64,000 nt of DNA, taken from assembly GCA_023133595.1 (NCBI GenBank), contig JAGLWF010000004.1, forward strand, positions 42,917 to 106,916, given 5' to 3'. This DNA is from Nanobdellota archaeon (GTDB lineage: Archaea; Nanobdellota; Nanobdellia; Woesearchaeales; WJKV01). Positions 2,289 through 45,942 of the stretch are shown here, piece after piece; within the stretch, counting starts at the first letter, position 1, and each line of letters begins with the position of its first letter. The translations under genes and the position numbers were made by a program. Below the pieces are notes generated by a model that saw nothing but the letters and a program-made list of their open reading frames with translations, was not told the origin of the DNA and made no database searches.

Positions 2289-4229
2289 TTACTTTGTCGT
2301 CATAACCCAGACACCATTCCATTCTTTTGGCGGGGGTGTTCGTTTGAATCTTCTGCATCGTTCGGCAAAGACTTCTGCAGCCACATCTTTTTTGATTTTA
2401 AGTGCATTTCTAAATTCTTTAAGTGCATTTTCCCACCTCTTGTTCAGATAGTTTTCTAGACCTGCTTCGTAAGCAGAGATCAATTCATAATCATCTTTCT
2501 TCACATCCTCTTTTCGGCCCACAAGTTCGTAGATAAATATCGGCCTCTTTTTTCCTTTGACAGCGACGAGATCCAATTTTCGTGTCACGAATTTGTCGGC
2601 AACGCGTTTCTGTGTGTTTTCACTGATGACAATCTCTACTCCGTATTGTTTTGTTATTCCCTCTAATCGTGAACCTAAATTGATTGTATCTCCGATCGCA
2701 GTGTAATCAAAACGATCATAAGAACCTAGATTGCCAATGACAGCTTTTCCAGTATTCAGTCCGATTCCGACGCGGATCTCTGGGAAACCTTCTTGTTTCC
2801 ATTTCTTGCGCAGTTCCCGAAGATCTTTTGCCATGTCAATTGCTGTCGAACATCCTAGTATTGCGTGATTTGGCTGGTCCAGTGGCGCTCCCCAGAATGC
2901 CATGATCGCATCCCCAATATATTTGTCAACAACACCTTGATGATTAAGGATGATCTTTGTCATTGCACTGAGATATTCATTCAAGACATGAACTAATTTT
3001 TCTGGTGTAATCTCTTCTGATATTGTTGTAAATCCCCGGATGTCAGAGAAAAACACAGTGATCTCTCTTTTCTGCCCTCCAAGTTTCAAGAGCGAAGGGT
3101 TTTTCAGAAGTTCCTCGATGACAACTGGCGAAACATACTTGCCGAACATGTTATGCAATTCTTTTTTTGATTTTTTCTCAGACATGTAGAAATAAAGTAT
3201 TGTGATTGTATAAGTCAGGCCGATTGCAATCGGAACATACAATATGTTCATGATTACCCCAAAATTAAACGCGTAAATAGCAAGAAAGATGTACGCCACG
3301 CCGAGCACAGCAGCAGTAATTGAGGCACTGAATATATGCATCTTCCAGATGATAATGGCTGTAAGCAATGCAGCGATGAAAATCAACAATATGATTGATA
3401 ATACTGACTGTTGTCTAAGAAAGTCTTTCAGTATCATTGTCTGGATTGTGTTTGCATGCACTTCAACTCCAGGCATTGCTTTTCCAGCAGAAGTCGGAAC
3501 AAAAGATTCGTCGTGCAGGTCCGGGGCAGTCGCTCCTATCAAGACTAATTTATCTTCAAACTCAGACTTGTCAACCCGATCATTAATCAAATCAGTAAAA
3601 GAATACTGTCTGAAACTTCCGGGTTTGTCTACAAAATTTATCAGGAACCGGTTCGCCTTTTCTATTTCTTTTTTCCAGTAATGCTTGTGAACAACGTATG
3701 CAAAATTATCATACTCGTCGCTGATATCCATGTTTACGCTTCTGCTTATTCCATCTGCATCAGTGATGATATTGACATAACCTAGATCCGTATCTTGATT
3801 GATATTTTCAACTGGAAGAAGCAGGTCTTTTCCAACAACTCGTCCATCCTCAATAATAAACTTGGTATATTCAATTGGGATTACAACATTTCCAGCACGT
3901 CTGATCGCTTCGCCAAAAATAATATCTTTCTCTTCCTCTTCTGATTCTTCAAAGAATGCAACATCTATTCCAACAGTCTTTGCTCCAGAGAGAAAATCAA
4001 CCACTTCTGCAAACTTGTCCCTGTCCCAGGGCCAGCGGCCTATCTCCTGCAAACTTTTGTCGTCGATCGCAATAAGAATTATGCTATCCAATGGAGTTTT
4101 TCCTCCATAAAGATTATCACTAAGTTTTAATTGAATATTAGACAAGAAACCAATAGAAAAAAGTAAAGAGCAAATTATTGCGCATAGTAGCGCAATGCCA
4201 ATGCATTTGCCTAATCTGCTTTTGATCAT
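2289..4229 (-). CDS. CHASE2-sensor class III adenylate/guanylate cyclase
   Basis: A 646-residue membrane protein. An N-terminal transmembrane helix (about 10-30) leads to an extracytoplasmic CHASE2 domain (about 31-270, with IGRWPWDRDKFAEV and GVEVHANTIQT), then three membrane helices (275-348) and a cytoplasmic class III cyclase domain (385-570). Catalytic residues look intact: metal ligands D396 in FFSDIRGF and D440 in KYIGDAIM, and the N517/R521 pair in the INLGSR segment. A short TPR-like tail follows. It should make cyclic nucleotide in response to an external signal. The FecR gene lies 2 bp upstream in the same operon. This architecture is typical of bacteria, so transfer is likely. Confidence 0.9.
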   Translation of the reverse strand: MIKSRLGKCIGIALLCAIICSLLFSIGFLSNIQLKLSDNLYGGKTPLDSIILIAIDDKSLQEIGRWPWDRDKFAEVVDFLSGAKTVGIDVAFFEESEEEEKDIIFGEAIRRAGNVVIPIEYTKFIIEDGRVVGKDLLLPVENINQDTDLGYVNIITDADGISRSVNMDISDEYDNFAYVVHKHYWKKEIEKANRFLINFVDKPGSFRQYSFTDLINDRVDKSEFEDKLVLIGATAPDLHDESFVPTSAGKAMPGVEVHANTIQTMILKDFLRQQSVLSIILLIFIAALLTAIIIWKMHIFSASITAAVLGVAYIFLAIYAFNFGVIMNILYVPIAIGLTYTITILYFYMSEKKSKKELHNMFGKYVSPVVIEELLKNPSLLKLGGQKREITVFFSDIRGFTTISEEITPEKLVHVLNEYLSAMTKIILNHQGVVDKYIGDAIMAFWGAPLDQPNHAILGCSTAIDMAKDLRELRKKWKQEGFPEIRVGIGLNTGKAVIGNLGSYDRFDYTAIGDTINLGSRLEGITKQYGVEIVISENTQKRVADKFVTRKLDLVAVKGKKRPIFIYELVGRKEDVKKDDYELISAYEAGLENYLNKRWENALKEFRNALKIKKDVAAEVFAERCRRFKRTPPPKEWNGVWVMTTK

Positions 4230-10415: not shown

Positions 10416-12248
10416 TCACCATGCAGGGTCATCATAATCAGGATCACCAGGAAATCTGTGTCTGTCCTTTTCCTGGGGCCGTCTTATATCTGTACTGGTT
10501 CTTTTTTCATCTTTGATTGTCCCTGCAATTTTTTCACTTGTAAACTCAAGATCATCCAATGTTTCTGCTGCAAGAAAATCAACTTCTCCTTTTCTAGGAA
10601 CTAGTTGGAACCGATTCACATCTCCTTCTTCTGGATTTGGCATGAATGATAATCCGTTCAATTCTTCAGAGATGTATCCAGTCAAAGCATCGTGATGGCT
10701 GGTGACAAAAACCCTGCAGCCTTTCTTGATAAGAACAGGAAGAAGACGTTTTGCCATCTCTCGCGCAGTATGTGCATTAGTTGAATCACCTAACTCATCA
10801 AGTATGACAGTCTCTCCAAGATGGACATCCATCAGCTGTTTTTCAACACCTCGAAGGCTTCTCTCTAGTTCAGAACCTCCGTACCCTCTTTCTCCTTTGC
10901 ACGAGATTAGATGACTGCAAGGAACAGGACTGTATCTTGCATCTACAACAGGACTTGGATAACCAGCGTTTGTCAAAGCAATAAGCAAGTGTACTGTTCT
11001 CCACGCTTCTGACTTTCCTCTTTTGTTCGGACCTTCTGCCTGTATCACTCGATGCTCTGGCAAGAAATTGAACCAGTTCGGTGCTGTAGGTGGCCGATAT
11101 CTGCTTTGGTATTCAGGTTGTAATTCTTGGGTCCTTGGTTCGTGCGCAATCCTTTGAAAAATCATCCTTATTGGATAGATCTCTGTTAGTTCGAGAACTC
11201 CGGGTTCATCTACAATCTCTGGAAATGTCGAGGGATAATCATACTTCTGCAATTCATGATGCAGAAAAGCACCCTGGAAATAATGCTTGATCTGCAAGTG
11301 CACTAGGAAAGCTGGAACAGCAAGTATCTGCGATGCGATTTCATTCACAATATCCATCCTCTGCCTTGCATGCCCGATTGCCTGAGCTACCAAGCCTTCA
11401 TCATCCCATCCATCTTTGAATTTCACAACTTTTCTCTCTTCTATCTTTCTTGTTCCTCTTCGATCCATTTTTTCCACAGCATACATAGATATATCATCCT
11501 CAAGAAAGACAAAAACATCTTCTGGTTTTATTCCTGGTTTCAACATTCCGAAACGACCTTGTTTGAACCGTTCTGTAAAGACAGCGAATATCCTTGAATC
11601 AGTGATCTTTCTTTTCTTCCGCAACAATTCACAGAAATAAATATCATCCCGCATCTCACATGCCCAACTGTACAATCTCTTGAAAGCTTCGCTTTTCAGA
11701 TCAAATTTCTCGAGTTCCAGAAGATTATCTAAAAACACAGCAAGCTTCTCTGGTGTACCATCACAACTGACAGAAACAGAGGTATAATCATGCGCACTAC
11801 CGTCTGGAAATAATTTGCTTGCATCTATCAACAATTTTTCAAAAAAATCATATAATTCTTTATTCTTTATGAATTCTTTCACAGCTTCCTGCCTGAACCT
11901 GACATCTTTAGTAGTGTTAGGCAGATTCAGAAGATGGTGGTAAGGCAGCGGTGTTTTGTGATACGCGTCCGATCCAAGCATAGATACTTTTCCCTGGAAG
12001 ATTGGGTGTTCGTTTCCGCCGAACATCCGTTCAATAACTTCATACTCTCTATCATGTCCTAGATACAAAAGACCAGAATTCTCAATTTGATCATCTCTGT
12101 GTTCTTGATGCTGCAAATGCACTGGATAAAACTTGTTCCCAGGATCTCCTTGCAATTGCAATGCTTCTTCTAGGGTTCCATCAACAGAAACCATATTCGC
12201 AGCCCAGACTACATTTCTCCTGTTCAGCTTTTCAATTTTCTCATCCAT
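10416..12248 (-). CDS. Divergent MutS-family ATPase
   Basis: A 610-residue protein whose C-terminal third is a MutS-type ABC ATPase: Walker A GPNKRGKS (406-413), signature GGSELERSL (about 457), Walker B VILDELGD (481-488), and an H-loop His in VFVTSHHD (about 518). The N-terminal 390 residues are mostly helical and may hold core and lever helices, but no mismatch-reading domain I with a Phe-x-Glu motif is visible. The conserved DE-x-GRGT of true MutS is changed to DELGDSTN. It may work in recombination or another DNA process rather than mismatch repair. The C-terminal 70 residues are charged and probably disordered. Confidence 0.75.
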   Translation of the reverse strand: MDEKIEKLNRRNVVWAANMVSVDGTLEEALQLQGDPGNKFYPVHLQHQEHRDDQIENSGLLYLGHDREYEVIERMFGGNEHPIFQGKVSMLGSDAYHKTPLPYHHLLNLPNTTKDVRFRQEAVKEFIKNKELYDFFEKLLIDASKLFPDGSAHDYTSVSVSCDGTPEKLAVFLDNLLELEKFDLKSEAFKRLYSWACEMRDDIYFCELLRKKRKITDSRIFAVFTERFKQGRFGMLKPGIKPEDVFVFLEDDISMYAVEKMDRRGTRKIEERKVVKFKDGWDDEGLVAQAIGHARQRMDIVNEIASQILAVPAFLVHLQIKHYFQGAFLHHELQKYDYPSTFPEIVDEPGVLELTEIYPIRMIFQRIAHEPRTQELQPEYQSRYRPPTAPNWFNFLPEHRVIQAEGPNKRGKSEAWRTVHLLIALTNAGYPSPVVDARYSPVPCSHLISCKGERGYGGSELERSLRGVEKQLMDVHLGETVILDELGDSTNAHTAREMAKRLLPVLIKKGCRVFVTSHHDALTGYISEELNGLSFMPNPEEGDVNRFQLVPRKGEVDFLAAETLDDLEFTSEKIAGTIKDEKRTSTDIRRPQEKDRHRFPGDPDYDDPAW

Positions 12249-13383: not shown

Positions 13384-14592
13384 TCAGTCCTGCTCTAAAC
13401 CTTTTTTCTTTATTTCAGTCTTTCTTTTATCTCTCTCGTGGTTTCTTCTTGCACGTTTTTCCATTGCATCTAGTAGGCGCGCGATCTTAGGATGTCCTTC
13501 TGCAAGACTATCGAGAGCTTCCTCGATGTGTATCTGGCCGTACATAACTCTTCTGATATTCCTGAAGACTATGAAATCTTTCTCCCATCCTTTTCCTCTG
13601 AAATAGTTTGCAAGGGAGTTTGTTGTTGTCACGCTTTCAACAGCCTCGCCAACATAGTCAAGGATCTCTTCTATAGGCCTATCATCTCCTTTTGCCTGTG
13701 CAATTCCTCGCAGACGGCCTGCCTTAAAATTTCTGGAATCCTTGCTTAATGCTGTTGTTATAAGATCCCCAAGAGCGATATAGGGAATTCTTCCTTCATA
13801 CCCTTTATCCTTTGCTATTCGATGGTACATATACTCTGCTTCCTGCGCACTGATCTCAATAAGGCTGCCGATTGTATTCATTATCTTCACTTCCAATTTA
13901 CCTTCTTTGCTTGCCTGCTCTTCATAGTATCCATGGACAACTCCAGATGCAAAAGCTATGACATTCTTCAATGCACTGCTTAATTCCAGTCCAAGAATAT
14001 CAGGATTGTCTTGCAGTGTTGTGAATCTATGGAGAGTAAATGTATCTTTAAGTAGTTCATGATACTGTTTATTAGGAAACAAGGTCGCAATCGCAGTGCT
14101 TGTGGCAAGAAAAGGTTTCTCTCTTATCTCCCTTGCAATGTTTGGTCCTGCCAAAGAAGCGATCCATGGTCTATTGTAACTTTTCAGTTCTTGTATAAAG
14201 ATCTCGTGCATAAGATCAACACTATGCTTTTTTTCATCGTAAACTATACCTTTTGCAACATTAAGAATGTAACAATCATGCGGAAAATACGCTGCAAAAG
14301 TATGAGCAGTCGCTCTCATATGTGCAGACGGAACAGCAAATATTGTAAGATCAGCACTTTGAGCATCTATAAATGCAGCTTCAGGCCATATTGCAGCACT
14401 GTCTTGATCTAGAAGTGGTCTATTTCCAATTGTCATTCTTGGACCATGAATCTTTATATTATAACCCGGATAAGTAAATCCTTTTTCTTCAGGATACCTC
14501 TCTGGGTCCTGCAGCATACCGCAGATAGTAGAACCCCAGCTGCCATTACCTAGAATCAGAATGTTTTTGATGGGTTTCAGTTGCTCTGTCAT
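13384..14592 (-). CDS. gpsA: NAD(P)-dependent glycerol-3-phosphate dehydrogenase
   Basis: A 402-residue protein. The N-terminal Rossmann segment ILILGNGSWGSTI (about 10-22) binds NAD(P). The family's substrate-site landmarks follow: SLAGPNIAREI, then LELSSALKNVIAFASGV and the catalytic region around YIALGDLITTALSKDSRNFKAG. It is about 60 residues longer than usual because of insertions and a basic tail. It reduces dihydroxyacetone phosphate to sn-glycerol-3-phosphate, the bacterial lipid backbone, whereas archaea normally make G1P. It overlaps the acyltransferase gene by 47 bp, which strongly suggests a two-gene lipid operon. Confidence 0.88.
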   Translation of the reverse strand: MTEQLKPIKNILILGNGSWGSTICGMLQDPERYPEEKGFTYPGYNIKIHGPRMTIGNRPLLDQDSAAIWPEAAFIDAQSADLTIFAVPSAHMRATAHTFAAYFPHDCYILNVAKGIVYDEKKHSVDLMHEIFIQELKSYNRPWIASLAGPNIAREIREKPFLATSTAIATLFPNKQYHELLKDTFTLHRFTTLQDNPDILGLELSSALKNVIAFASGVVHGYYEEQASKEGKLEVKIMNTIGSLIEISAQEAEYMYHRIAKDKGYEGRIPYIALGDLITTALSKDSRNFKAGRLRGIAQAKGDDRPIEEILDYVGEAVESVTTTNSLANYFRGKGWEKDFIVFRNIRRVMYGQIHIEEALDSLAEGHPKIARLLDAMEKRARRNHERDKRKTEIKKKGLEQD

Positions 14593-15838
14593 TGATACTC
14601 ATCCCTTCTTCTTCGAAATGATCTAAACGTGAAGCATAATATGCAATGATATGTTTTCTTCTTCTGTTTCGGGTCAGGGTGCCATTGCATGAAAAGATAG
14701 CACCTCTGAACGGAGATGCAAACACTAGCATTCCCCTATTAAAAACATCAACAATATCCCCTTCAATATGTCTAGATTTATATCCTCTATTAATATAACT
14801 TTCCCTTAGTCTCTCCATCTCAGCAAGGACATGCCTCTTTTTTGTCTCTGTTGTCTCTTTTAATGTCATAAACTTTTGGAATGCTCTGGCAACAAGGTCA
14901 GACGGCAATATTTCTATTAACCTGCCGACTTCTCTTCTCAGTTCAACTGATAATGATGTCTTAAGCTTTTTTCTGTGCTTTTTTGCATCTCCAAAAGAGA
15001 CAAGATGCGGTTTTCCTACATTCATATAAAAATTCCCTAGTGTTGTTCTTCTTGGATCGTAGAATGCTTCTCCGCCATTCATCACGATAGAAGCGCTACG
15101 TTCCAATCCCCGCACATAACACTGCGCATGGATCATTGGAAGATCAAGACCATAATATTTGAACCATTCAATTGCATATCTTATAATTTTAGGATTAAAC
15201 AGAGAAGGTTTTCCTTCTTTTCTTAAGCTTTTATACTTCTCAAAAGTTCTGAAATGCCTGTCTTCAGCTACTCTTTCATAATTTATCGCTGCAGTCACAA
15301 AATAAATATCCACTCCTGCCATGACCTGCGCAGCAAGAAGGATGTTCAGCACAGCCTCGTTAAATTGCAGCAACTTTCCAGTATCAGAACGTTTACCTTC
15401 TGGAAAGAACAAGCAATCCTCTTTCTTGCCAAGCAATTCGTCTGCAATATATTGTTTTTCTGCTCTTAAAACGTCTTTGTATGATTTTCCAGGAACATTT
15501 CTAGGATCACGATAGATCTTGAATGCTTTGGATTTTCTAAGTCCTTCTCCCATCAATGGAAAATCAATCAGATTGTCACCAGCTGCAATCGCAGGAGGAT
15601 TTCTATCTGTCTTTCTGTCAATAATATAAGGAAATATTTGATAATCAATATGGCTCTTGTGCATTAACATATAGATGACAATATCATTGTTTGACAAACC
15701 TGCAAGATTCTCAAGACCTTTGACCTCTTTTTTATCAAACATCTTTGTTATAAATTTGCCTGCGCGATCTCTCTGGATGTCATAATAAGAAGGATCAAAA
15801 CGATGCTCAATGTCTGTGAAATCCATCTTATCTGCCAT
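14546..15838 (-). CDS. PlsB-like glycerol-3-phosphate acyltransferase
   Basis: A 430-residue protein with the PlsB/PlsC acyltransferase motifs in order: HKSHID (His60 and Asp65, catalytic HX4D), AFKIYR (105-110, glycerol-phosphate binding) and FFPEGKRSDTG (144-154, FPEG type with a PlsB-like arginine-serine). It should acylate glycerol-3-phosphate at the membrane with acyl-CoA or acyl-ACP. No clear membrane helix is seen, so peripheral binding is likely. It is first in an operon with gpsA, which supplies its substrate. A TATA-like TTTTATAAA at about 15863-15871 implies a leaderless start. This pair is very unusual in an archaeon. Confidence 0.82.
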   Translation of the reverse strand: MADKMDFTDIEHRFDPSYYDIQRDRAGKFITKMFDKKEVKGLENLAGLSNNDIVIYMLMHKSHIDYQIFPYIIDRKTDRNPPAIAAGDNLIDFPLMGEGLRKSKAFKIYRDPRNVPGKSYKDVLRAEKQYIADELLGKKEDCLFFPEGKRSDTGKLLQFNEAVLNILLAAQVMAGVDIYFVTAAINYERVAEDRHFRTFEKYKSLRKEGKPSLFNPKIIRYAIEWFKYYGLDLPMIHAQCYVRGLERSASIVMNGGEAFYDPRRTTLGNFYMNVGKPHLVSFGDAKKHRKKLKTSLSVELRREVGRLIEILPSDLVARAFQKFMTLKETTETKKRHVLAEMERLRESYINRGYKSRHIEGDIVDVFNRGMLVFASPFRGAIFSCNGTLTRNRRRKHIIAYYASRLDHFEEEGMSINDRATETHQKHSDSR

Positions 15839-22533: not shown

Positions 22534-24165
22534 ATGGATATCGAAGCTGAAACACCATCAAACGGAAGAATAAAATCGAATTCTGACGGAGAGGAATTAG
22601 TTTTTCCAACACAAGACATTCCAATGGGATTACCAAAAAATGTTCAATCTCTTTGTCCAGAATGTACAAAAGTTATTGATGCAGTAATGTACGAAGAAGA
22701 CGGAAAAGTCTTCATGAAAAAGACATGCTCAGAGCATGGAGAGTTCAAGGATTTCATCAGCGGAAATGTAGAGTTCTGGCTGAAGATGGAACGTACTAGT
22801 TTTGAAGACGGACCTGGTTTTGGGAATCCCCAGACAAAGTACACAGGCAATTGTCCTACTGATTGCGGTATCTGCGATCATCACCTAAGTAATGCGTGTT
22901 TAGCAAATATTGATCTTACTAACAGATGTAATCTAAATTGTCCTGTATGTTTTGCAAATGCAAACAAAGCAGGTTATGTATGCGAACCTTCTCTTGAGGA
23001 TGTGCGAAAGATTGTCAAGACATTAGTCAATACAAAACCTAATCCATGTACAGTTGTACAATTTTCAGGTGGAGAACCAAGCATCCATCCTCAAGTCATT
23101 GAAATTATGAAAATGGCTAAAGAGGAAGGTATGAAATTTATGCAGATGGCTACAAATGGTGTCCGTCTTGCGGGTGATGATGGGGAGTTTGCAAAAAAAT
23201 GTGTTGATGCAGGTCTGCAGCAAATTTACTTGCAGTTCGATGGTACTAACGAGGAAGTTTACAAGAAAACAAGAGGAAATGGAAAACTTTGGAAAATCAA
23301 ACAGAAATGTATTGAGAACTGTAGAAAAGCAGGTCTTAAAGTAGTCTTTGTTCCAACAATCATAAAAGGTGTTAATGACAACCAAGTCTGGGACATTCTG
23401 CAATATGCAATTGATAATATCGATGTTATGAATGGTGTTAGTTATCAGCCTGTTTCATTCTGCGGCCGTCTGCCTCAGGATGAAATTATGAATACAAGAT
23501 ACACTATGACAGATATTGTCGAAGCTCTCGAAAGAGGTAGCAAAGGTAAATTAATGACAATGAGAGACTGGTATCCCTTATCATTCGGATCACCAATGTC
23601 AAAATTATTGTCTGCGAACAGTGGCAAGCCTGTCATGACAATCACAAACCACGCGCAATGTGGTGCTGGTGCATACATACTTGTCAACAGAGATACCAAA
23701 GAAACAATTCCGTTATCAGCAGTGTTTGATTTTGAACGTATCATGCTAGAGATAAACGAGCTTGTAAAGAAAGCTAAAACCTCAAAGCTAAGCAACATGA
23801 TCACAAAAATCAAAGGTTTTAATATTCTAAGAAAGTATTGGAAAGCAGAGAATGCACCAGAAGATCTTAGCTTCATGACATTCATGAAGACGCTTGAGGG
23901 TATGCTGAATGGAAACAGGGTAAAAGACGAGAAGTGGATACTGCTTGTTGTCCTAGGTATGCATTTCCAGGACAAGTACAGCTTCAGACTAGACCGTGTC
24001 AGAAGATGTGTCATCCACTACGGTGCACCAGACGGTAAGATCTATCCGTTCTGCACATACAATGCTGGTCCGACTTTCAGGGAGAAGATTGAGAAAGAAT
24101 ACAGCATTCCTTTAGAAGAATGGAAGAGACGAAACGCAAACGTGCAGGATTTCAAACCTGAATAG
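22534..24165 (+). CDS. Tetraether-lipid-synthase-like (Tes/GDGT-MAS) radical SAM enzyme
   Basis: A 543-residue radical SAM protein. The SAM-cluster motif is TNRCNLNCPVCFANAN (Cys132, 136, 139). Before it are further cysteines in CPEC (41-44), CPTDCGIC (107-114) and C122, and at the C-terminal side CGAG and C-rich IYPFCTYNAG, suggesting extra Fe-S clusters. The motifs QFSGGEPS, YLQFDGTN, GVNDNQ and YQPVSFCGR match the MJ0619/MA_1486-type family that joins two archaeol tails into tetraethers. An archaeal lipid step is therefore encoded 6.7 kb from bacterial-type gpsA-plsB. Substrate assignment is by family resemblance only. Confidence 0.7.
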   Translation: MDIEAETPSNGRIKSNSDGEELVFPTQDIPMGLPKNVQSLCPECTKVIDAVMYEEDGKVFMKKTCSEHGEFKDFISGNVEFWLKMERTSFEDGPGFGNPQTKYTGNCPTDCGICDHHLSNACLANIDLTNRCNLNCPVCFANANKAGYVCEPSLEDVRKIVKTLVNTKPNPCTVVQFSGGEPSIHPQVIEIMKMAKEEGMKFMQMATNGVRLAGDDGEFAKKCVDAGLQQIYLQFDGTNEEVYKKTRGNGKLWKIKQKCIENCRKAGLKVVFVPTIIKGVNDNQVWDILQYAIDNIDVMNGVSYQPVSFCGRLPQDEIMNTRYTMTDIVEALERGSKGKLMTMRDWYPLSFGSPMSKLLSANSGKPVMTITNHAQCGAGAYILVNRDTKETIPLSAVFDFERIMLEINELVKKAKTSKLSNMITKIKGFNILRKYWKAENAPEDLSFMTFMKTLEGMLNGNRVKDEKWILLVVLGMHFQDKYSFRLDRVRRCVIHYGAPDGKIYPFCTYNAGPTFREKIEKEYSIPLEEWKRRNANVQDFKPE

Positions 24166-32805: not shown

Positions 32806-35169
32806 TTAATCTTTCCATTTGGAGATGCGGTTATTAAACCAATCAGCAACATATATATTCCCAGAACTATCTACATGCACACCCATAGGGAATCCAAAGG
32901 ATTGATAATCTGAATTCTGAACCGATGGTGCAGAACCAATTTGCCAGTTGTTTGAAGCGCCACCGATCCAGCCAACTGCATTTCCATTCGAATCCCACTT
33001 TGAAATCCGATGATTATCTCGTTCAGAGACGTAAATATTACTACCATTGGAATCAACAAAAACTCCAGTAGGATAATTAAAGCTTTGATAATCTGTACCA
33101 GAAGATGCTCCAGATGTAGTTTTCCAACCATCAGATCCACCGCCAATCCATCCAAGAGAATTACCATTTGAATCCCACTTAGAAACACGGTGATTGGCAA
33201 AATCAGCTACATAAATGTTACCATTGCTATCCACAAAAGTTCCATTACAACCACTAAAACTTTTGTAATCTGAACTTCCAGAAGATGGGACATAACTTTG
33301 CTGCCAACCATCAAAACCATGACCGATCCAGCCTTGAGCATTTCCACTCGAATCCCATTTCGAAATACAATGATGATGGGGGATATACATATTACCGCTA
33401 CTATCTACAAAAACATGGCTTGGTGCAAAAAAGCTTTGATAATCTAATGCTCCAGTAAAAACTCCATTAGTAACTTTCCATCCATTAGAAGCTCCTCCTA
33501 TCCAGCCATGTGTACCTGCAGTAGTAAACCATTTTGATACTCTGTGATTATAAAAATCTGCGATATAAATATCATTCCCTCTAACAAAAACACCTGTTGG
33601 ATTATTAAAACTTTGATAATCATCTGCATAAGTAGATGGGGCAGATCCAGTTTTCCAATTATTAGTTCCGCCTCCGAACCAACCTGTTGCAATCCCAACA
33701 CTGGACCAGGTAGATATACGATGGTTTTGCTTATCCGCAACATAAATAGTTCCTGATTGATCAACAAAGACACCGCTAGGTGCAAAAAAACTTTTAAAAT
33801 CTGCTCCAGAATAGGGTGTAGAACCTGTCTGCCAACTATTTGAACCACTACCTATCCATCCAATTGCGTACACGTAATCCATTTTTTTCTGCAAAGTGTC
33901 TCCAGAAGAATGATTTGGAACTTCATCTTTTGTAAATATAGCATAAAAATAATCGCCGTCTGATAGTCCTGAATCTGTAGCAGATTGGTCACTGCCCTCG
34001 TAAACTAGAGTTCCATCAGTAGGACTGGTTGGGAATGAACTTTGTTTTCTACGGAGAACAACACCAACAAAATCACTATCACTAGGATTTGTCCAGGAAA
34101 AATCAATTGCATTTCCATTAATATTACCAGTAAAACCAGAAACATCTCTAGGTGCGATTCCATCCAAAGGAGTTGCAGAGGACCCTATTCCAGAAGAAAA
34201 ATTAGGAATCTCATCCTGCGCAAAGATTGTGTAATAATGCACAATCTCTTCTGTCAATCCTGTATCTGTAAAAGAAGTTGTTTCTCTATTTCCATATCCA
34301 TCAAAGATTACTGTTCCATCATTAGGATCTACTGAAAAAGAATCAAGCTTTCTAAGAACCACAACACCGCTAAAATCTGGATCTGTGGGGTTTTCCCAAG
34401 AGATATCAACTTGATTATTTCCAGCTGTTAGAACCAAGTTAGTAATAAATCCCGGAGAAGTTGCATCAAATGGCGTTGCTGAAACTTCTTGGCTAACAGT
34501 CATATTCTGTGAAGAATCATAAGCAAAAGCTTTGTAAATATAATTTGCATTATCCATTACTCCAGGATCAACAAAAGATTCATCCAAGCCATCGTAAACA
34601 ATAGTATCACCTTCATAACCATTACGTCTTCTCACTATCTTAACACCTGCAAGATCAAAATCACTAGGATTTTTCCAGGAAAGTAGTACAGACATATTTC
34701 CAGGCTGTGCAATTAATTCTGAGACTGCTCCGGGAGCTGTTGTATCAAATGCTATTGCTGAAGCTGATACTCCATGAGAACCTCCTGCCTCCTTAAAAGA
34801 ACGTGTAAAAATCTTGTAACAATAAAGAATAGCTGGTTCTAAACCAGTATCAACATAGGATTCATCTGCGCCTTGATATATCATAGTTCCATCAGTATAA
34901 TCTATTGGGGCCAGATTTTCCTTTCTACGAATCATGACATTTGCAAAATCTGTAAAAGAAGGATTATCCCACGATAAATCAACTTCTCGCTCCCCACCTA
35001 TTGCAGTAAACTCAGTTGCTTGATGCGAAGTATCTATAATTCTTGTTTCTTCTTCATCACATCCACCACCAAACAAAAGCCCAGCACCTAGCAACGCAGT
35101 TGTACCAATCTTACCGACAGTGCTTCCTAGAAGATTCTTCACACTTCCGAGTAAATTTTCTAATGCCAT
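32806..35169 (-). CDS. FN3-NHL surface lipoprotein, paralogue 1 of 8
   Basis: A 787-residue protein, last in the array and with the most FN3-like domains. The signal ends in LLFGGGC (Cys37). Four FN3-like domains follow (about 48-142, 143-236, 237-337, 338-432), each with the pattern 'EVDLSWDNPS...GVMIRRK...DGTLVYEG...SYVDTGL...YFYAIF'. Then six NHL repeats of about 58 residues (for example NHRVSKWDSNGN, PTGVFVDSNG) make one six-bladed propeller to the end. It should stand on the outside of the cell, the propeller being a binding surface for protein or sugar. Its ATG is one base after the stop of paralogue 2. Confidence 0.85.
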   Translation of the reverse strand: MALENLLGSVKNLLGSTVGKIGTTALLGAGLLFGGGCDEEETRIIDTSHQATEFTAIGGEREVDLSWDNPSFTDFANVMIRRKENLAPIDYTDGTMIYQGADESYVDTGLEPAILYCYKIFTRSFKEAGGSHGVSASAIAFDTTAPGAVSELIAQPGNMSVLLSWKNPSDFDLAGVKIVRRRNGYEGDTIVYDGLDESFVDPGVMDNANYIYKAFAYDSSQNMTVSQEVSATPFDATSPGFITNLVLTAGNNQVDISWENPTDPDFSGVVVLRKLDSFSVDPNDGTVIFDGYGNRETTSFTDTGLTEEIVHYYTIFAQDEIPNFSSGIGSSATPLDGIAPRDVSGFTGNINGNAIDFSWTNPSDSDFVGVVLRRKQSSFPTSPTDGTLVYEGSDQSATDSGLSDGDYFYAIFTKDEVPNHSSGDTLQKKMDYVYAIGWIGSGSNSWQTGSTPYSGADFKSFFAPSGVFVDQSGTIYVADKQNHRISTWSSVGIATGWFGGGTNNWKTGSAPSTYADDYQSFNNPTGVFVRGNDIYIADFYNHRVSKWFTTAGTHGWIGGASNGWKVTNGVFTGALDYQSFFAPSHVFVDSSGNMYIPHHHCISKWDSSGNAQGWIGHGFDGWQQSYVPSSGSSDYKSFSGCNGTFVDSNGNIYVADFANHRVSKWDSNGNSLGWIGGGSDGWKTTSGASSGTDYQSFNYPTGVFVDSNGSNIYVSERDNHRISKWDSNGNAVGWIGGASNNWQIGSAPSVQNSDYQSFGFPMGVHVDSSGNIYVADWFNNRISKWKD

Positions 35170-35170
35170 T

Positions 35171-37252
35171 CTAATCCTGCCATTTAGAGATTCGACGATT
35201 CATTGAGTCTGCGATATAGATATTTCCATTTGCAGCAACACAAACTCCTTTGGGTCCATAATATCCTGATATCCCAAAACTTTGATAATCATTTGCAGCA
35301 GATGCTCCAGAAACTTTTTGCCAACCATTAGAATTGCCACCAATCCATCCTGCAGGAGTTCCATCACTAGATCTTTTACAAACTCGATAATTATCTCGAT
35401 CCGCTACATAAATATTCCCATTTGAATCAATAAAAATACTGTCAGGCCTTCTAAAACCTTTATAATCCGATGTATAGAAAGGATTATTACCTGTTTGCCA
35501 ACCATCAAAAGTGCCTCCAAGCCAACCTATTGCATTGCCAGAATCACTCCATTTTGAAATTCTTTCGTTAGTAGAATCTGCTATGTAAATATCGCCATTA
35601 AAAACAAAAACATCTGCCGGATATGCAAAATATTTTAATCCATTGTTTATATTGGACCATTGTGGATTTGCATTATCTGTTCTCCAATTATCTTGACCAT
35701 CACCGATCCAGCCAATAGCGTTTCCTTGAGCGTCCCATTTAGAGATTCTATGATTATGGCGTTCTGCAACGTAGATATTTCCATCACCATCCACAAAAAT
35801 ACCTTTTGGATAATTAAAACTTTGGTAATCAGAACCAGAAGAAGCACCATCAGTTGTTTTCCAACCATTTGAACCTTCACCTATCCAGCCAAGAGCATTT
35901 CCTTGAGCATCCCATTTACAAACACGATGATTTTGATAATCTGCTATATAGATATTTCCATTATTATCAATAAAAATACCTTTCCCACCCATCAAACTTT
36001 GATAATCTAAACCCCCTGAACAACTACTGCTTGTTTTCCAACCATTGGACCCTCCACCTATCCAACCAATAGCATTGCCCGTGCTATCCCATTTACAAAT
36101 TCTAGCAGAATCTGCTACATAAATATTTCCATTAGAATCAAGAGCAACATCTTCTGGGAAAAAAAAACTTTGATAATCAGTAGCACTGGAAGTTCCAGGA
36201 TAAGTTTTCCAACCATTTGAACTGTCACCAATCCAACCCAGAGCATACACATAATCTAGTTTTTTTTCTAAATTTTGCCCAGAAGAATGATTTGGGATTT
36301 GGTCAAAAGTATAAATTGCGTAGAAATAATTGCCATCATCTAAATTAGTATCTCGAAGATATTGCCCTGCTCCCTGGTAAACAACAGTTCCATCTGATCG
36401 ATTAATCGGAGCAGTTTCTAAATTTTTAACGACAATTACTCCAGCAAAATCAGAATCAATAGGATTTAGCCATGAAAGAGTTACAGACCATTTATGTATA
36501 TTTTCAGAATAATTTGGGATCATAATAAAATTAGAAACTTCTGCAGGAGGTATAAGTGGTAGTGGATTTTGCAAACCAGAATATACAATAATAGATTGAT
36601 TTGGAATATTATCAAAAGTTTGAGCACTATAATTATATGAGATATTGGAATTTAATCCATTGTCAACTGCAGATTGATCAGTTCCTCGATATACTAATTG
36701 CCCAGAAGATCCATTTATTCGCCAAATGCTAACCTCTGCAAAATCTGTATCTGTAGGATTTACCCATGATAATTGCATCCCTCCTTCTGTTGAAACAGCA
36801 ATAAATGATGTCACTGGACTAGGAGGGGTTCCATCATAAGGTCTAGCAGAAGTTATTAAATCTGAAGTCGAAATTGGGTCTGTTGGATTTACAAAAAAAA
36901 TTCGATAACAATAAAGCACATCTGCTTCTAATCCAGTATCAATATAAGATTTTTCCTCTCCTTGATAAACAAAATTTCCATCTGTTGGATTTGTAGGAAA
37001 AATTTCTTGTCTTCTACGTATCATGATCTCATCATCTCTTTTTAGGTCCCACGAAAGATTTATTTCATAATTTCCACCAGTTGCTGAAAAATTAGATTCA
37101 GCAATTGCTTCTGTCTCAACATCTTCTTCCTCAAAACATCCAGACATCCCAGCACCACCAAACAACAAGCCAGCGCCTAACCCTAAAGCACAAAAAGTAG
37201 TTCCAAGAACATTCTTCACACTTCTAACTAGACCTTCAAGACTTAACCCCAT
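35171..37252 (-). CDS. FN3-NHL surface lipoprotein, paralogue 2 of 8
   Basis: A 693-residue lipoprotein with lipobox MSGC (Cys39), a different signal type from paralogue 1. It has three FN3-like domains (about 45-140, 141-228, 232-345) and a six-bladed NHL propeller; blade 4 is atypical, with a longer entry loop (NANPQWSNINNGLKYFAYPA). Two blades have Cys in VCKWD rather than ISKWD. A TATA-like box at 37280-37289 sits about 33 bp before this ATG, so this and paralogue 1 probably form their own transcription unit. Confidence 0.85.
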   Translation of the reverse strand: MGLSLEGLVRSVKNVLGTTFCALGLGAGLLFGGAGMSGCFEEEDVETEAIAESNFSATGGNYEINLSWDLKRDDEIMIRRRQEIFPTNPTDGNFVYQGEEKSYIDTGLEADVLYCYRIFFVNPTDPISTSDLITSARPYDGTPPSPVTSFIAVSTEGGMQLSWVNPTDTDFAEVSIWRINGSSGQLVYRGTDQSAVDNGLNSNISYNYSAQTFDNIPNQSIIVYSGLQNPLPLIPPAEVSNFIMIPNYSENIHKWSVTLSWLNPIDSDFAGVIVVKNLETAPINRSDGTVVYQGAGQYLRDTNLDDGNYFYAIYTFDQIPNHSSGQNLEKKLDYVYALGWIGDSSNGWKTYPGTSSATDYQSFFFPEDVALDSNGNIYVADSARICKWDSTGNAIGWIGGGSNGWKTSSSCSGGLDYQSLMGGKGIFIDNNGNIYIADYQNHRVCKWDAQGNALGWIGEGSNGWKTTDGASSGSDYQSFNYPKGIFVDGDGNIYVAERHNHRISKWDAQGNAIGWIGDGQDNWRTDNANPQWSNINNGLKYFAYPADVFVFNGDIYIADSTNERISKWSDSGNAIGWLGGTFDGWQTGNNPFYTSDYKGFRRPDSIFIDSNGNIYVADRDNYRVCKRSSDGTPAGWIGGNSNGWQKVSGASAANDYQSFGISGYYGPKGVCVAANGNIYIADSMNRRISKWQD

Positions 37253-37277
37253 TTTAGCATATATATTATTGTTTTAC

Positions 37278-37290
37278 AAGTTTATAAAGG
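37278..37290 (-). promoter_or_regulatory. Internal promoter of the NHL array
   Basis: The 57-bp gap between paralogues 2 and 3 is the only long one in the array. On the minus strand it contains CCTTTATAAAC, a TATA-like box about 33 bp upstream of the ATG at 37252. It would let paralogues 1 and 2 be expressed apart from the six genes upstream. Confidence 0.5.
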
Positions 37291-37309
37291 TTTCCTGTCT
37301 GGTTTCGGA

Positions 37310-39343
37310 CTAATCTTTCCATTTGGAGACTCTGTTATTTGCAAATTCTGAAACAAAAATATTATCGTTAGTGTCAACAAAAACACTATAAGGGGCCATA
37401 AAATGTTGATATGTATATCCGCCGAAGATGCCAGAATTTGTTTTCCAGCCATCTGAACCCCCGCCAATCCAGCCAATGGCATCACCATTTAAATTCCATT
37501 TGCAGATTCGATGGTTTTGAAAATCTGCGACATATATATGTCCATTTCTAACAAAAACCCTTCTTGGGCAGCGAAAACTTTGATAATCATCACCAGCAGT
37601 TGTACCAGAACTATTCTTCCATCCATTAGAGCCTCCACCTATCCATCCAATAGCATTCCCATTGCTATCCCATCTGCTGATACGTTCATTTATTTTGTCT
37701 GCAATATAGAGCATCCCATTTTCAACAAAAATATCACTCGGGAGACTAAAACTTTTATAATCTGTGCCAGGAGAAGCTCCTGAAGTTTGTTTCCAACCAT
37801 CTGAACCTCCCCCAATCCAGCTGATTGCATTGCCAGAGCTATCCCACTTAGAAATACGATGATTACCTAAATCAGCAACAAAAACATTATTGCTATTATT
37901 CACAAAAACTGAGATTGGCCTATAAAAAAAGGTGTAATTCTGAGAATAAGCACAATTACTGCCTGTTTGCCATCCATTATACCCGCCACCGATCCAACCT
38001 TGCGCATTTCCGTTGGAATCCCATTTAGAAATTCGATTATTAAAATGATCTGCGACATATATGTTCCCATTGCTATCAACCCAAACTCCGCTAGGCCACG
38101 AAAAACTCTGGTAATCTGAGCCAGAAGATGGTGCTAAACCAGTTTTCCAGCCGTTCGAGCCCCCGCCAATCCACCCCTGAGCATTTCCATTACTATCCCA
38201 TTTACAGATACGATTATTCATAGAGTCTGCAACAAAAATATTTCCATTAATATCTACAAAAACATGATTCGGCTGATCAAAAAATTTATCTGCATAATAT
38301 CCTCCCACAACACCAGCATCTGTTCTCCAGCCATCCTGCCCACATCCGAACCAACCTTGTGCAACAACCATATCGATTGTACATAACTTAATTTCTCCAG
38401 AGGAATAATTAGAAACATCATCGTATGAAAAAATCGTGTAGAAATAATTACCATCTTGGGTAATCAAAGTGTCAGCATATGATTGTTCAGGTCCCTGATA
38501 AACTAAATCTCCCTCTGTAGGATTATAAGGTGCGAGGTCTATACATTTTCGGATCATAACCCCAGCAAAATCCACATTAGTTGGATTTGTCCAAGAAATA
38601 TTTACTATGTTATTTTGAATAGTAGTTTGAAAGTTAGATACTTCATTTGGTGGAGTTATATCAATAGTTGTACCCGATACTATTATTTGTCTAGAATGAT
38701 TTGGAACTTCATCAAAAGTATAGAATGCATAGTAATAAGTAACATTATCCTCAATTACATCAGTATCTGTAAAAGATTCACCAGTGCTTTGATATACCAC
38801 TGGTCCAGAATTCTCATCTAATGACGTTCGCCTCCAAATACAAAGTCCTGCAAAATCTGCATCTATAGGATTTGTCCAGGTTAATTCGATCGCACCAGCT
38901 TGTGGTGTAACAACAATGTTTGAAACATTTGCTGGAGGAGTTGCATCAAACGGTGTTGCAGAAACTGTTTTTTCAGAAAAATAAACAATTGGGTCTGCAT
39001 ATGAAAAAGAGAAAGCAGTATAACAGTAAAGGATCTTTGCATCCAGTCCAGAATCAACATAAGATCTTTCTCTTCCTTCGTATACTAAAGTTCCGTCAGT
39101 AGGATCTGTCGGAAAATAATCTATTTTTCTTCGAATCTTAACACCAGGCACTTCAATATTATCAGGATGTTTCCAAGAAAGCTGTACCTCATGATTTCCT
39201 GCTGTTGCTGCAAAAGTTTCAGTCTCAACAGTATCATCTTCATCTACTAGATCACATCCTCCTCCAAACAATAAACTTCCACCTAATAATAGACCGCCAG
39301 CTACATACTTCACGCCTCTGACTAAAGTTTCTATATCTATCAT
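37310..39343 (-). CDS. FN3-NHL surface lipoprotein, paralogue 3 of 8
   Basis: A 677-residue protein from the ATG at 39343 (MIDIETLVRGVK). A longer in-frame reading from 39367 starts inside the previous gene and breaks the one-base junction rule seen in the array. The signal is of the short type, ending in LLFGGGC (Cys30), as in paralogue 4. Three FN3-like domains precede six NHL blades with WIGGGSNGW linkers. The first blade differs (AQGWFGCGQDGW) and carries an extra Cys. The stop is TAG. Confidence 0.82.
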   Translation of the reverse strand: MIDIETLVRGVKYVAGGLLLGGSLLFGGGCDLVDEDDTVETETFAATAGNHEVQLSWKHPDNIEVPGVKIRRKIDYFPTDPTDGTLVYEGRERSYVDSGLDAKILYCYTAFSFSYADPIVYFSEKTVSATPFDATPPANVSNIVVTPQAGAIELTWTNPIDADFAGLCIWRRTSLDENSGPVVYQSTGESFTDTDVIEDNVTYYYAFYTFDEVPNHSRQIIVSGTTIDITPPNEVSNFQTTIQNNIVNISWTNPTNVDFAGVMIRKCIDLAPYNPTEGDLVYQGPEQSYADTLITQDGNYFYTIFSYDDVSNYSSGEIKLCTIDMVVAQGWFGCGQDGWRTDAGVVGGYYADKFFDQPNHVFVDINGNIFVADSMNNRICKWDSNGNAQGWIGGGSNGWKTGLAPSSGSDYQSFSWPSGVWVDSNGNIYVADHFNNRISKWDSNGNAQGWIGGGYNGWQTGSNCAYSQNYTFFYRPISVFVNNSNNVFVADLGNHRISKWDSSGNAISWIGGGSDGWKQTSGASPGTDYKSFSLPSDIFVENGMLYIADKINERISRWDSNGNAIGWIGGGSNGWKNSSGTTAGDDYQSFRCPRRVFVRNGHIYVADFQNHRICKWNLNGDAIGWIGGGSDGWKTNSGIFGGYTYQHFMAPYSVFVDTNDNIFVSEFANNRVSKWKD

Positions 39344-39344
39344 T

Positions 39345-41102
39345 TTAATCTTTCCATTTGGATACACACATTTTTGCCCAACAACCAGTATAGATATTGC
39401 CTGTAGTATCTACAAAAACTCCAGAAGGGCAATAAAAAGTTTGATAATCGGAAGTATCTGTATTAAATGCTCCTTGTATTGTCTTCCACCCGTCAGATCC
39501 TCCTCCGAACCAGCCACGAGCAATTCCTGAAGCCTTTTCCCATTTTGAAATTCTATGATTCCGACAATCTGCTATATAGAGGTGATCATCAGAAGAAAGA
39601 AAAACATCATACGGTTCATCGAAACTTTGAAAGGTAAAATCTGCAGTTGCTCCGCTATATGTATTCCAGCCATGCTGAGCATCTCCTAGCCACCCAACGG
39701 CATTTCCACTAGAATCCCATTTCAAAATACGATGGTTATCAGTATCTGCGATATAAATATCTCCATTAGTATCTACAAAAATTCCTTTTGGGTGATTAAA
39801 GTGTCGTAAACTAGAACCTCCATTACGATCACCTGAACTTTGTTTCCAACCATTAGATCCTCCACCGATCCATCCAATAGCAGTTGCATTTGTATCCCAT
39901 TTGCAAACACGATTGTTAAGATGATCTGCTATGTAGAAATTTCCACTGCTATCTACAAACAAGCTAGAAGGATAATCAAAACTCTGATAATCTGATGCAT
40001 TAGAAAAAGGCGGAGCACTAGTGGTTTTCCATCCATTGGACCCGCCACCAAACCAACCAATAGCATTGGCATTACTATCCCATTTACAAACACGATCGTT
40101 ATGCCAATCTGTTACATAGATATTTCCTGCAGTATCGACAAATACATCAGAAGGGGTATCAAAACTCTGAAGGTCTGTTCCGCTTGAGGTCCCTGAAGTT
40201 TGTTTCCAACCATTTGACCCTCCTCCAATCCAACCAAGAGCATTACCTGCACTATCCCATTTGCATATTCTATTATTTGAACTATCTTTTACAAAAATAT
40301 TTCCACTACTATCAACAAAGATACTTCCAGGTTGATCAAAACTTTGAAAATCTGAACCTATAGATGGTGTTGACGTTTGTTTCCATCCATTTGATCCATT
40401 TCCAATCCAACCAACTGCATAGACAGAGTCATGCCTGAGTGAGATTGTTGCCCTAGAAGAATAATTAGGGATATCATCAAATGAAAAGATCGAATAGAAG
40501 TAAGGAACATTTTCAGGTAATCCTGAATCGGTATAAGATTGACCAGAACCTTGATAGACAAAAGCATCGTTTGTATGGGATGTTGGATAAGAAACAGTTC
40601 CTCTTCGGATAATCACCCCATCAAAATCAGGAGCAGTAGGATTTGTCCAGGAAAGTTCTATTCCTGCAGCAGTGGAAGTTGCTGAAATATAATTTACCAT
40701 TCCAGGAGAATTGTAATCATAAGGAGTTGCAGAAGCTGCCTTTGGAGTATAAATTATTGGATCTTCAATTGAATAAGGAAAAGCAGAATAACAATAAAGT
40801 GTTCCAGGAGATACTGCTGTATCAATATAAGCTTGTCCTAAACCGTCATAAACTAACGTACCATCTTGAAGATCAGCTGGAAAAGTATCAACCTTTCTCA
40901 TGATCTCGGCACCACAGGTTGGTGCTGTTTTCCATGAAAGAGTTACTTGACGTTCTCCAGGTTCTGCTCTAAAATCTGATAAATTCTCTTTTTCAACATC
41001 ATCGTCATCAGCACATCCACCAAACAATAAAGCACTACCTAACAACAAGCCGCCTGCGAGATACTTCACATCATTGACCAAACTTTCTATACCTAATACC
41101 AT
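39345..41102 (-). CDS. FN3-NHL surface lipoprotein, paralogue 4 of 8
   Basis: A 585-residue lipoprotein, lipobox FGGC (Cys30). It has two FN3-like domains (about 38-130 and 133-225) and a six-bladed NHL propeller. Its short-type signal (VKYLAGGLLLG) resembles paralogue 3, so the two are probably a recent duplication or gene-conversion pair. A late blade reads KASGIARGWFGGGSDGW and another NTYSGATADFTF, diverging from the standard 'SGTDYQSF' spacer. Its stop is separated from the next ATG (39343) by one base. Confidence 0.85.
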   Translation of the reverse strand: MVLGIESLVNDVKYLAGGLLLGSALLFGGCADDDDVEKENLSDFRAEPGERQVTLSWKTAPTCGAEIMRKVDTFPADLQDGTLVYDGLGQAYIDTAVSPGTLYCYSAFPYSIEDPIIYTPKAASATPYDYNSPGMVNYISATSTAAGIELSWTNPTAPDFDGVIIRRGTVSYPTSHTNDAFVYQGSGQSYTDSGLPENVPYFYSIFSFDDIPNYSSRATISLRHDSVYAVGWIGNGSNGWKQTSTPSIGSDFQSFDQPGSIFVDSSGNIFVKDSSNNRICKWDSAGNALGWIGGGSNGWKQTSGTSSGTDLQSFDTPSDVFVDTAGNIYVTDWHNDRVCKWDSNANAIGWFGGGSNGWKTTSAPPFSNASDYQSFDYPSSLFVDSSGNFYIADHLNNRVCKWDTNATAIGWIGGGSNGWKQSSGDRNGGSSLRHFNHPKGIFVDTNGDIYIADTDNHRILKWDSSGNAVGWLGDAQHGWNTYSGATADFTFQSFDEPYDVFLSSDDHLYIADCRNHRISKWEKASGIARGWFGGGSDGWKTIQGAFNTDTSDYQTFYCPSGVFVDTTGNIYTGCWAKMCVSKWKD

Positions 41103-41103
41103 T

Positions 41104-42897
41104 TTAATCCTGCCATGTAGAGATACGGTTGTTTGTTACTTCTGCAATAAACATTTTACTACTTCCATCAACAAAAATACTTCTTGGAGTGCTGAAATTT
41201 CTATAATCCGAACCGCTAGTTACTAATCTTCCTGTTTTCCAACCATCAAAACCATTACCAATCCAACCAAACGCATTTCCGTTTGAATCCCATCTACAGA
41301 TACGATTATTTGCAGTGTCTGCAATATAAATACTACCATTTAAATCTACGAACACATCACGAGGTTCATTGAAACTCTTATGATCAGTTCCCGAAGAAGT
41401 TCCTAAAGTTTGTTTCCAACCATTAGAACCTCCACCGATCCAACCAATAGCATTTCCACTAGCATACCACTTAGATATTCGGTTATTTCCGTGATCAGCA
41501 ACATAAATAAAATTATTATGATCTACAAAAACACTGGTTGGTGCTAAAAAACTCTTATAATCAGAAGCAAAATTTACTGATGATCCATTCTGCCATCCGT
41601 CCTGTCTATTTCCTATCCATCCAACAGCATTGCCCCCCCCAGTCCATTTACAGATACGGCTATAACCATCAACAACATACATATTTCCGACACTATCAAG
41701 AGCTAATCCAATTGGAAACCAAAAACTTTGATAATCTGAACCAGAAGATGCTCCATTAGTTTGTTTCCAACCGTTAGAACCTCCACCGATCCAACCAACA
41801 GCATTACCATTACTATCCCATTTACTGACTCTATTATTTTGACGATCAAGAACATACAAATTACCAGATCCATCAACACAAATATCTGTAGGTGAACTAA
41901 AACCACGATAATCAGAAACTTGCGGTACAGACAGCGGAGAAGAAGTTTTCCATCCATCAGAACCTCCACCAATCCAAGCAACAGCATTACCAGCACTATC
42001 CCATTTTGTAACCCGATTATTCAACTGATCAGCAACATAAATATTTCCAGAAGAGTCAACACAAATTCCATAAGGATAACAGAAACTTCTTAAATCATGA
42101 CCAAAAACAGCGTCATTAGTTGTTTTCCATCCATCTGAACCTGCACCAATCCATCCGATAGGAGTTACTGTATCTGATTTCTCAGGTAGTGGAGTTTCAG
42201 TGTGAGTATTCCCAAAAGAGAAATTATTAGAATCATCATATGTATAAATTCTATAAAAATATGTAACTCCTACTGTTAAATTTCCATCAACAAGCTCTGT
42301 TTGACTATTTCCATCATAAACTAAATCTCCATCAGAAGGTCCAGTTATATTAGAACCAGTTTTTCTTCTAAGAATTACTCCAGCAAAATCCGGATCTGTT
42401 GGAGGTGTCCATGAAATTTCAATTGCTCCTTCAATTTGGTAAGTACCAAAAGTCAGCACTTCTCCAGGAGGAATTCCATCAAACGGAGTAGCTGATGCTT
42501 CCAATGACGAATAAGAATAAGTTGGATTCGAATATGAAATTACAAAGGCTTTATAACAATATAAAACATCTGCCTCTAATCCACTATCAATATAAGATGA
42601 TTCTTGGCCTTCATAAACCAGAGTACCATCATCTATATCGGTTGGAACAGTATCTTGTTTCCTTTGGATATGTATATCTGAGTCTTCTTCATCTTTAGGT
42701 AATTTCCAAGAAAGAGCCACTTCGTAACTTCCAGCTGTTGCAGAAAGAAATATTTCATCAACTACCATAGGATCCTCTTCTTCATCACATCCACCACCAA
42801 ACAAAAGCCCGGCACCTAGTAAAACAGTTGTACCGACCTTCCCGACAGTGCTACCTAGAAGATTCTTCACACTTCCGAGTAAACTTTCTATTCCCAT
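41104..42897 (-). CDS. FN3-NHL surface lipoprotein, paralogue 5 of 8
   Basis: A 597-residue lipoprotein. The signal (MGIESLLGSVKNLLGSTVGK, Cys37) is almost identical to those of paralogues 1, 6 and 7. Two FN3-like domains (about 47-142 and 143-240) and six NHL blades. Blade 4 has a distinctive Gly-rich turn, CKWTGGGNAVGW, encoded by a run of eight C on the plus strand near 41633-41640, a slippage-prone site. Another blade has NFIYVADHGNNRISKWYASG. Confidence 0.85.
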   Translation of the reverse strand: MGIESLLGSVKNLLGSTVGKVGTTVLLGAGLLFGGGCDEEEDPMVVDEIFLSATAGSYEVALSWKLPKDEEDSDIHIQRKQDTVPTDIDDGTLVYEGQESSYIDSGLEADVLYCYKAFVISYSNPTYSYSSLEASATPFDGIPPGEVLTFGTYQIEGAIEISWTPPTDPDFAGVILRRKTGSNITGPSDGDLVYDGNSQTELVDGNLTVGVTYFYRIYTYDDSNNFSFGNTHTETPLPEKSDTVTPIGWIGAGSDGWKTTNDAVFGHDLRSFCYPYGICVDSSGNIYVADQLNNRVTKWDSAGNAVAWIGGGSDGWKTSSPLSVPQVSDYRGFSSPTDICVDGSGNLYVLDRQNNRVSKWDSNGNAVGWIGGGSNGWKQTNGASSGSDYQSFWFPIGLALDSVGNMYVVDGYSRICKWTGGGNAVGWIGNRQDGWQNGSSVNFASDYKSFLAPTSVFVDHNNFIYVADHGNNRISKWYASGNAIGWIGGGSNGWKQTLGTSSGTDHKSFNEPRDVFVDLNGSIYIADTANNRICRWDSNGNAFGWIGNGFDGWKTGRLVTSGSDYRNFSTPRSIFVDGSSKMFIAEVTNNRISTWQD

Positions 42898-42907
42898 TTT
42901 AAAAAAA

Positions 42908-44167: not shown

Positions 44168-44168
44168 T

Positions 44169-45941: not shown

Positions 45942-45942
45942 T

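Follow-up and report, generated by a model that had tools for sequence, protein, structure and literature searches.

A compact PlsB-like acyltransferase gene overlapping gpsA in Woesearchaeota and its possible role in sn-glycerol-3-phosphate acylation

The overlapping gene pair and its archaeal contig

The window analysed in this study, a stretch of 64,000 nucleotides, lies within a 106,916-base contig of a MAG of 1.37 Mb that is estimated to be 92% complete. We refer to the genome of the window as G000 and to its same-family relative, Candidatus Woesearchaeota archaeon Bin_486 (WJKV01000030.1), which is the only other genome of the family, as G001. The following features of the window are central to this analysis.

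13384-14592, minus strand: gpsA, NAD(P)H-dependent sn-glycerol-3-phosphate dehydrogenase (402 aa, ATG start; PF07479, PF01210)
14546-15838, minus strand: PlsB/GPAT1-family glycerol-phosphate acyltransferase-like protein (430 aa, ATG start; compact)
14546-14592, minus strand: coding overlap of the acyltransferase ORF and the gpsA ORF (47 bp)
22534-24165, plus strand: homologue of the tetraether lipid synthase Tes (543 aa; NF045702, PDB 7tol)

Both ORFs of the pair, and the overlap between a PlsB-like acyltransferase gene and gpsA claimed in the preliminary description, were confirmed. The overlap is regarded as real because the start of gpsA is constrained: its next in-frame Met falls past the Rossmann GxGxxG motif. 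The two genes appear to be translationally coupled.

The gene families of the pair are of bacterial origin, which would fit an assembly or binning chimera containing bacterial DNA, a possibility that the preliminary description had tied to a composition break at this region. However, GC content and tetranucleotide composition run through the pair without a break (z from -1 to 0.1), genes for aIF2-alpha and a proteasome assembly chaperone share its contig, and the same pair is seen in independent MAGs. Chimerism was therefore rejected as extremely improbable. The archaeal assignment of the host also held, as G000 shares its family with Bin_486 and contains a gene for archaeal ribosomal protein L11 elsewhere in the genome.

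The gpsA product matched PF07479 with 68 bits (cut-off, 25) and PF01210 with 57.5 bits (cut-off, 23.1), and its relatives in the PDB include 1txg. The catalytic residues K114, K209, N210, D276, T280, R287 and N288 are conserved, and the nucleotide-binding GxGxxG motif is kept as GNGSWGS. The score against the best NCBIfam model (119 bits) fell below the subfamily/equivalog cut-off (257). Judged by these matches and residues, the protein is a divergent GpsA member. Bacterial GpsA has already been described in Woesearchaeota in passages of three papers (PMC5059525, PMC6431249, PMC8204110); no PlsB is described in those passages.

The acyltransferase matched PF01553 in Pfam (60.8 bits; cut-off, 23), and its best NCBIfam models are those of PlsB (NF003441, 9.6e-21; TIGR03703, 1.9e-19), with the PlsC-type model TIGR00530 (9.2e-7) far behind. 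Its score of 73.8 bits is below the PlsB equivalog cut-off of 610 in NCBIfam, and its 430 aa fall short of the full PlsB architecture of about 800 aa; we therefore call it PlsB-like and place it in a compact branch. A family profile built from 12 Woesearchaeota homologues aligned over nearly its whole length with residues 248-617 of E. coli PlsB (176 bits) and scored 29 bits against E. coli PlsC. In an AlphaFold2 model of the protein (mean pLDDT 82), the closest solved structure was human GPAT1 (8e4y; TM-score 0.65 normalized by query length, E 1.5e-16), and PlsC (5kym) and plant GPAT ranked below it. An identity as PlsC was ruled out by both the profile and the fold.

The HX4D and FPEG motifs are intact, as the preliminary description had stated: they read HKSHID, with the catalytic dyad H60/D65, and FPEGKRS, in which E148, R150 and S151 represent motif III. 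H306, D311, R354 and E385 of E. coli PlsB and its motif III Arg are all retained, and the counterpart of R354, the motif II Arg R110, is invariant among all full homologues checked. The His/Asp dyad and the phosphate-binding Arg residues are present in all homologues checked. Pro421 of E. coli PlsB is replaced by Thr in the window protein and is Pro in every other homologue checked, and motif III is changed in some gpsA-linked homologues (DSGRA in G001, PGKGR in G074 and HDGRS in G003).

The protein thus shares with E. coli PlsB and human GPAT1 the core and the C-terminal helical region (E. coli 248-617), the HX4D motif, the phosphate-binding Arg and EGxRS, and its fold is nearest to that of GPAT1. 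In contrast to them, it is about half as long, lacking the N-terminal (approximately 230 aa) and C-terminal (approximately 190 aa) parts, shows about 30% identity over the core, carries the Pro421 substitution, and is encoded in an archaeon by a gene that overlaps gpsA. Short PlsB-like proteins are also found in Rhodobacterales (e.g. Ruegeria TM1040_RS00910; 158 bits to the Woesearchaeota profile), but these are stand-alone proteins without an adjoining gpsA and lie apart from the Woesearchaeota proteins in the tree.

Recurrence of the pair in Woesearchaeota

The adjacent PlsB-like-gpsA pair is present in five genomes (G000, G001, G003, G074 and G228), which represent four families. As the two-gene order is repeated in the four other genomes listed below, it stands above chance.

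L060 (G001): the ORFs overlap by 26 bp with a TTG start and otherwise abut
L070 (G003): the 3' part of the PlsB-like gene lies at a contig edge and overlaps gpsA by 8 bp
L125 (G074): the pair overlaps by 28 bp
L128 (G228): the pair members are 2 bp apart

Six genomes have both a long PlsB-like protein and gpsA, and the two genes are adjacent in five of them. A strongly degenerate pair, whose acyltransferase-like member has no Pfam match, was found in a further genome (G042). Across families, the linkage and the active-site residues persist at an identity of about 30%.

In the order as a whole, gpsA is present in 108 of the 353 genomes. One or more acyltransferase genes lie directly upstream of gpsA on the same strand in 46 of these 108 genomes (as counted from the listed gpsA and acyltransferase coordinates, with G042 added by hand), and 38 of the 46 carry two tandem PlsC-type genes at this position. 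The acyltransferase-gpsA association is therefore recurrent, and the type of partner changes while the functional association stays. No neighbouring acyltransferase was found for the gpsA of family f65 in the four genomes inspected. In another Woesearchaeota family, one gene run (L065:999-6389, plus strand; G014:C138) comprises an acyl-CoA dehydrogenase-like ORF, two ETF-like ORFs, two PlsC-type acyltransferase genes and gpsA. Bacterial plsY-gpsA pairs, such as those of Monoglobus and Collinsella, likewise have a G3P acyltransferase gene directly before gpsA, but PlsY is an unrelated membrane enzyme that uses acyl-phosphate, unlike the PlsB-like protein.

In the PlsB tree, the gpsA-linked proteins were not recovered as one clade (p-AU 0.055), and the branching was unresolved. 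In the gpsA tree, the grouping of the window with G001 was supported (99/98), G074 joined them weakly (84/73), and no other grouping was supported. No donor lineage is therefore claimed. The only match in a scan of genome contigs was the same-family relative. A viral origin of the pair was also considered and rejected: no relatives were found on the viral contigs searched, and the PlsB genes that were matched in 'phage' records are of the ordinary kind and probably represent host DNA.

According to a 2019 survey (Coleman et al., PMC6431249), no PlsB was found in archaea, and this absence forms part of the argument that bacterial lipid genes make no archaeal membrane lipids. A full-text search of open-licence papers yielded no description of PlsB in Woesearchaeota. 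The PlsB-like-gpsA cassette of Woesearchaeota is thus real and conserved, and apparently undescribed so far.

Lipid genes of the genome

The preliminary description had pointed to egsA, GGGP synthase, fatty acid synthesis and plsC as the genes of interest elsewhere in the genome. Among these, only a second, PlsC-like acyltransferase was found (C37:4212-5039). Family searches, in which positive controls for EgsA and GGGPS matched, detected neither EgsA nor GGGPS in G000 or G001, and the canonical archaeal G1P ether-lipid pathway, as represented by these two enzymes, was thus not found. The search for the bacterial pathway covered ketoacyl synthase, AMP-binding acyl ligase and CDP-alcohol phosphotransferase; none of these three families was found in G000 or G001, and a complete bacterial fatty-acid/phospholipid pathway was not found on this basis. 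Because G001 lacks the same five families, the incompleteness of the MAG is a weak excuse for these absences, and genuine absence is more likely than gaps. AMP-ligases are frequent in the order as a whole. One of them, in another genome, is part of an unusual fusion: HMG-CoA reductase and a phosphopantetheine site share a single 1035-aa ORF (L063:4795-7902, minus strand; G009:C8) with the AMP-binding acyl ligase. The gene run to which this ORF belongs also encodes a PlsB-like protein, a LarA homologue and a lipid kinase.

Two UbiA proteins are encoded in G000, one being decaprenyl-phosphate phosphoribosyltransferase-like and the other apparently belonging to another prenyltransferase group (NF009516/NF010119/NF009608), which we take to be lycopene-elongase-like. 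Neither was accepted as DGGGPS, as their subfamilies differ, and the archaeal pathway is not rescued by them. A GGR-family protein is encoded next to UppS, and these two genes and the lycopene-elongase-like UbiA gene form a cluster beside the gene for archaeal L11 (L151:674-4083; G000:C34), hinting at prenyl-chain or carotenoid chemistry.

The 543-aa protein encoded 6.7 kb from the pair passed the NCBIfam equivalog cut-off for Tes (NF045702, 537.5 bits versus 450) and matched the GDGT-MAS synthase MJ0619 (PDB 7tol) over nearly its full length (E 4.1e-127). Its identification as a Tes tetraether synthase is nearly certain on these matches; a functional link to the PlsB-like-gpsA pair is conceivable. 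Tes homologues in DPANN MAGs were judged unexpected and perhaps host-derived (Zeng et al., PMC8941075). The Tes gene found here shares its contig with archaeal aIF2-alpha. As EgsA and GGGPS went undetected in this genome, the lipid substrate of the full-length homologue must be either unusual or obtained from elsewhere. Tes and the GGR-family protein make it likely that this organism tailors some lipids.

Possible functions of the pair

We consider it probable, with moderate confidence, that the pair is a two-gene cassette for making acylated sn-glycerol-3-phosphate. GpsA would reduce DHAP to G3P, the coupled compact PlsB-family enzyme would acylate the sn-1 position of G3P to yield lyso-phosphatidic acid, and the PlsC-like protein could add a second acyl chain. 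The acyl donor would probably be scavenged, because the condensing enzyme of fatty-acid synthase and an AMP-forming acyl ligase were not found. G3P as the acceptor is suggested by the family, the active site, the linkage and the stereospecificity of E. coli PlsB for G3P (PMC13400652), which fits the pairing with a G3P-making GpsA; the donor is presumably an acyl thioester, and the product and its membrane role are likewise presumptive. Homology to PlsB over PlsC in both profile and fold, the retention of the His/Asp dyad and phosphate-binding Arg residues among the homologues checked, the intact gpsA, the linkage in five genomes, the order-wide association of gpsA with acyltransferase genes, the PlsC-like second acyltransferase and the failure to find G1P-forming EgsA in G000 support G3P acylation. 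On the other hand, donor and product fate are unexplained without ketoacyl synthase, AMP-binding ligase and CDP-alcohol phosphotransferase, and the altered motif III of some homologues, the Pro421 substitution, the missed NCBIfam equivalog cut-offs and the failure of the PlsB tree to recover the gpsA-linked proteins as one clade count against it.

The main rival is the remodelling of borrowed lipids, which we regard as unlikely. The PlsB superfamily includes DHAP acyltransferases, and the acyltransferase could re-acylate scavenged lyso-lipids or, like GNPAT, acylate DHAP, with gpsA supplying or reducing a precursor, while host lipids would otherwise be imported and then modified by Tes and by the protein of the GGR family. 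This would suit a genome that has the latter two proteins without EgsA, GGGPS or ketoacyl synthase, and lipid scavenging and modification have been proposed for DPANN archaea (PMC7242380, PMC11868695), but direct coupling with gpsA is seen in four families, which favours G3P itself as the acceptor. An autonomous, de novo synthesis of G3P-ester membranes of the bacterial type is highly unlikely: GpsA, the PlsB-like and the PlsC-like proteins form a formal route from DHAP to phosphatidate, plsC-plsC-gpsA runs lie beside ETF genes in related families and AMP-ligases are common in the order, but the three bacterial families searched for were not found in either G000 or G001, and the gene content does not support the idea that the archaeon builds bacterial-type membranes on its own. 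A non-lipid or decaying role, with gpsA working in redox or glycerol metabolism and the acyltransferase acting on another hydroxyl compound or losing its function, is considered quite improbable. The altered motif III, the degenerate pair of G042 and the f65 gpsA without an acyltransferase neighbour would fit such a role, but the active-site residues and the linkage have been kept across families despite the low identity.

Of the acyl-G3P lipid synthesis proposed in the preliminary description, the PlsB-family enzyme and the intact gpsA stand, whereas an actual capability for bacterial-type glycerolipids is not supported as stated, as the pathway genes searched for were not found. Its other option, scavenged-lipid remodelling, fits better than such a capability and is strengthened by the presence of Tes in the window, although the pair's substrate and its product are conjectural.

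Should the PlsB-like protein acylate G3P, the first step towards bacterial-type glycerolipids, or the use of borrowed fatty acids, would be open to some archaea. This would be directly relevant to mixed membranes and to the lipid dependence of DPANN symbionts. A more speculative and rather doubtful extension concerns this DPANN archaeon without G1P-lipid genes: it would combine its own G3P with borrowed acyl chains into a G3P-ester lipid and use Tes and the GGR-family protein for tailoring archaeal lipids that are borrowed as well. Both sides of the lipid divide would then be truly mixed in its membrane. With its coupling to gpsA in several families of Woesearchaeota, the compact PlsB-family enzyme offers a small, expressible test case.

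Other genes of the window were also noted. Just downstream of the pair, a 610-aa protein with weak similarity to MutS domain V is encoded (10416-12248, minus strand). A protein with CHASE2 and adenylate/guanylate cyclase domains (2289-4229, minus strand) represents bacterial-looking signalling in an archaeon, and a series of large same-strand ORFs (32806-48336, minus strand) contains NHL repeats in its first and last members, which were the ORFs scanned.
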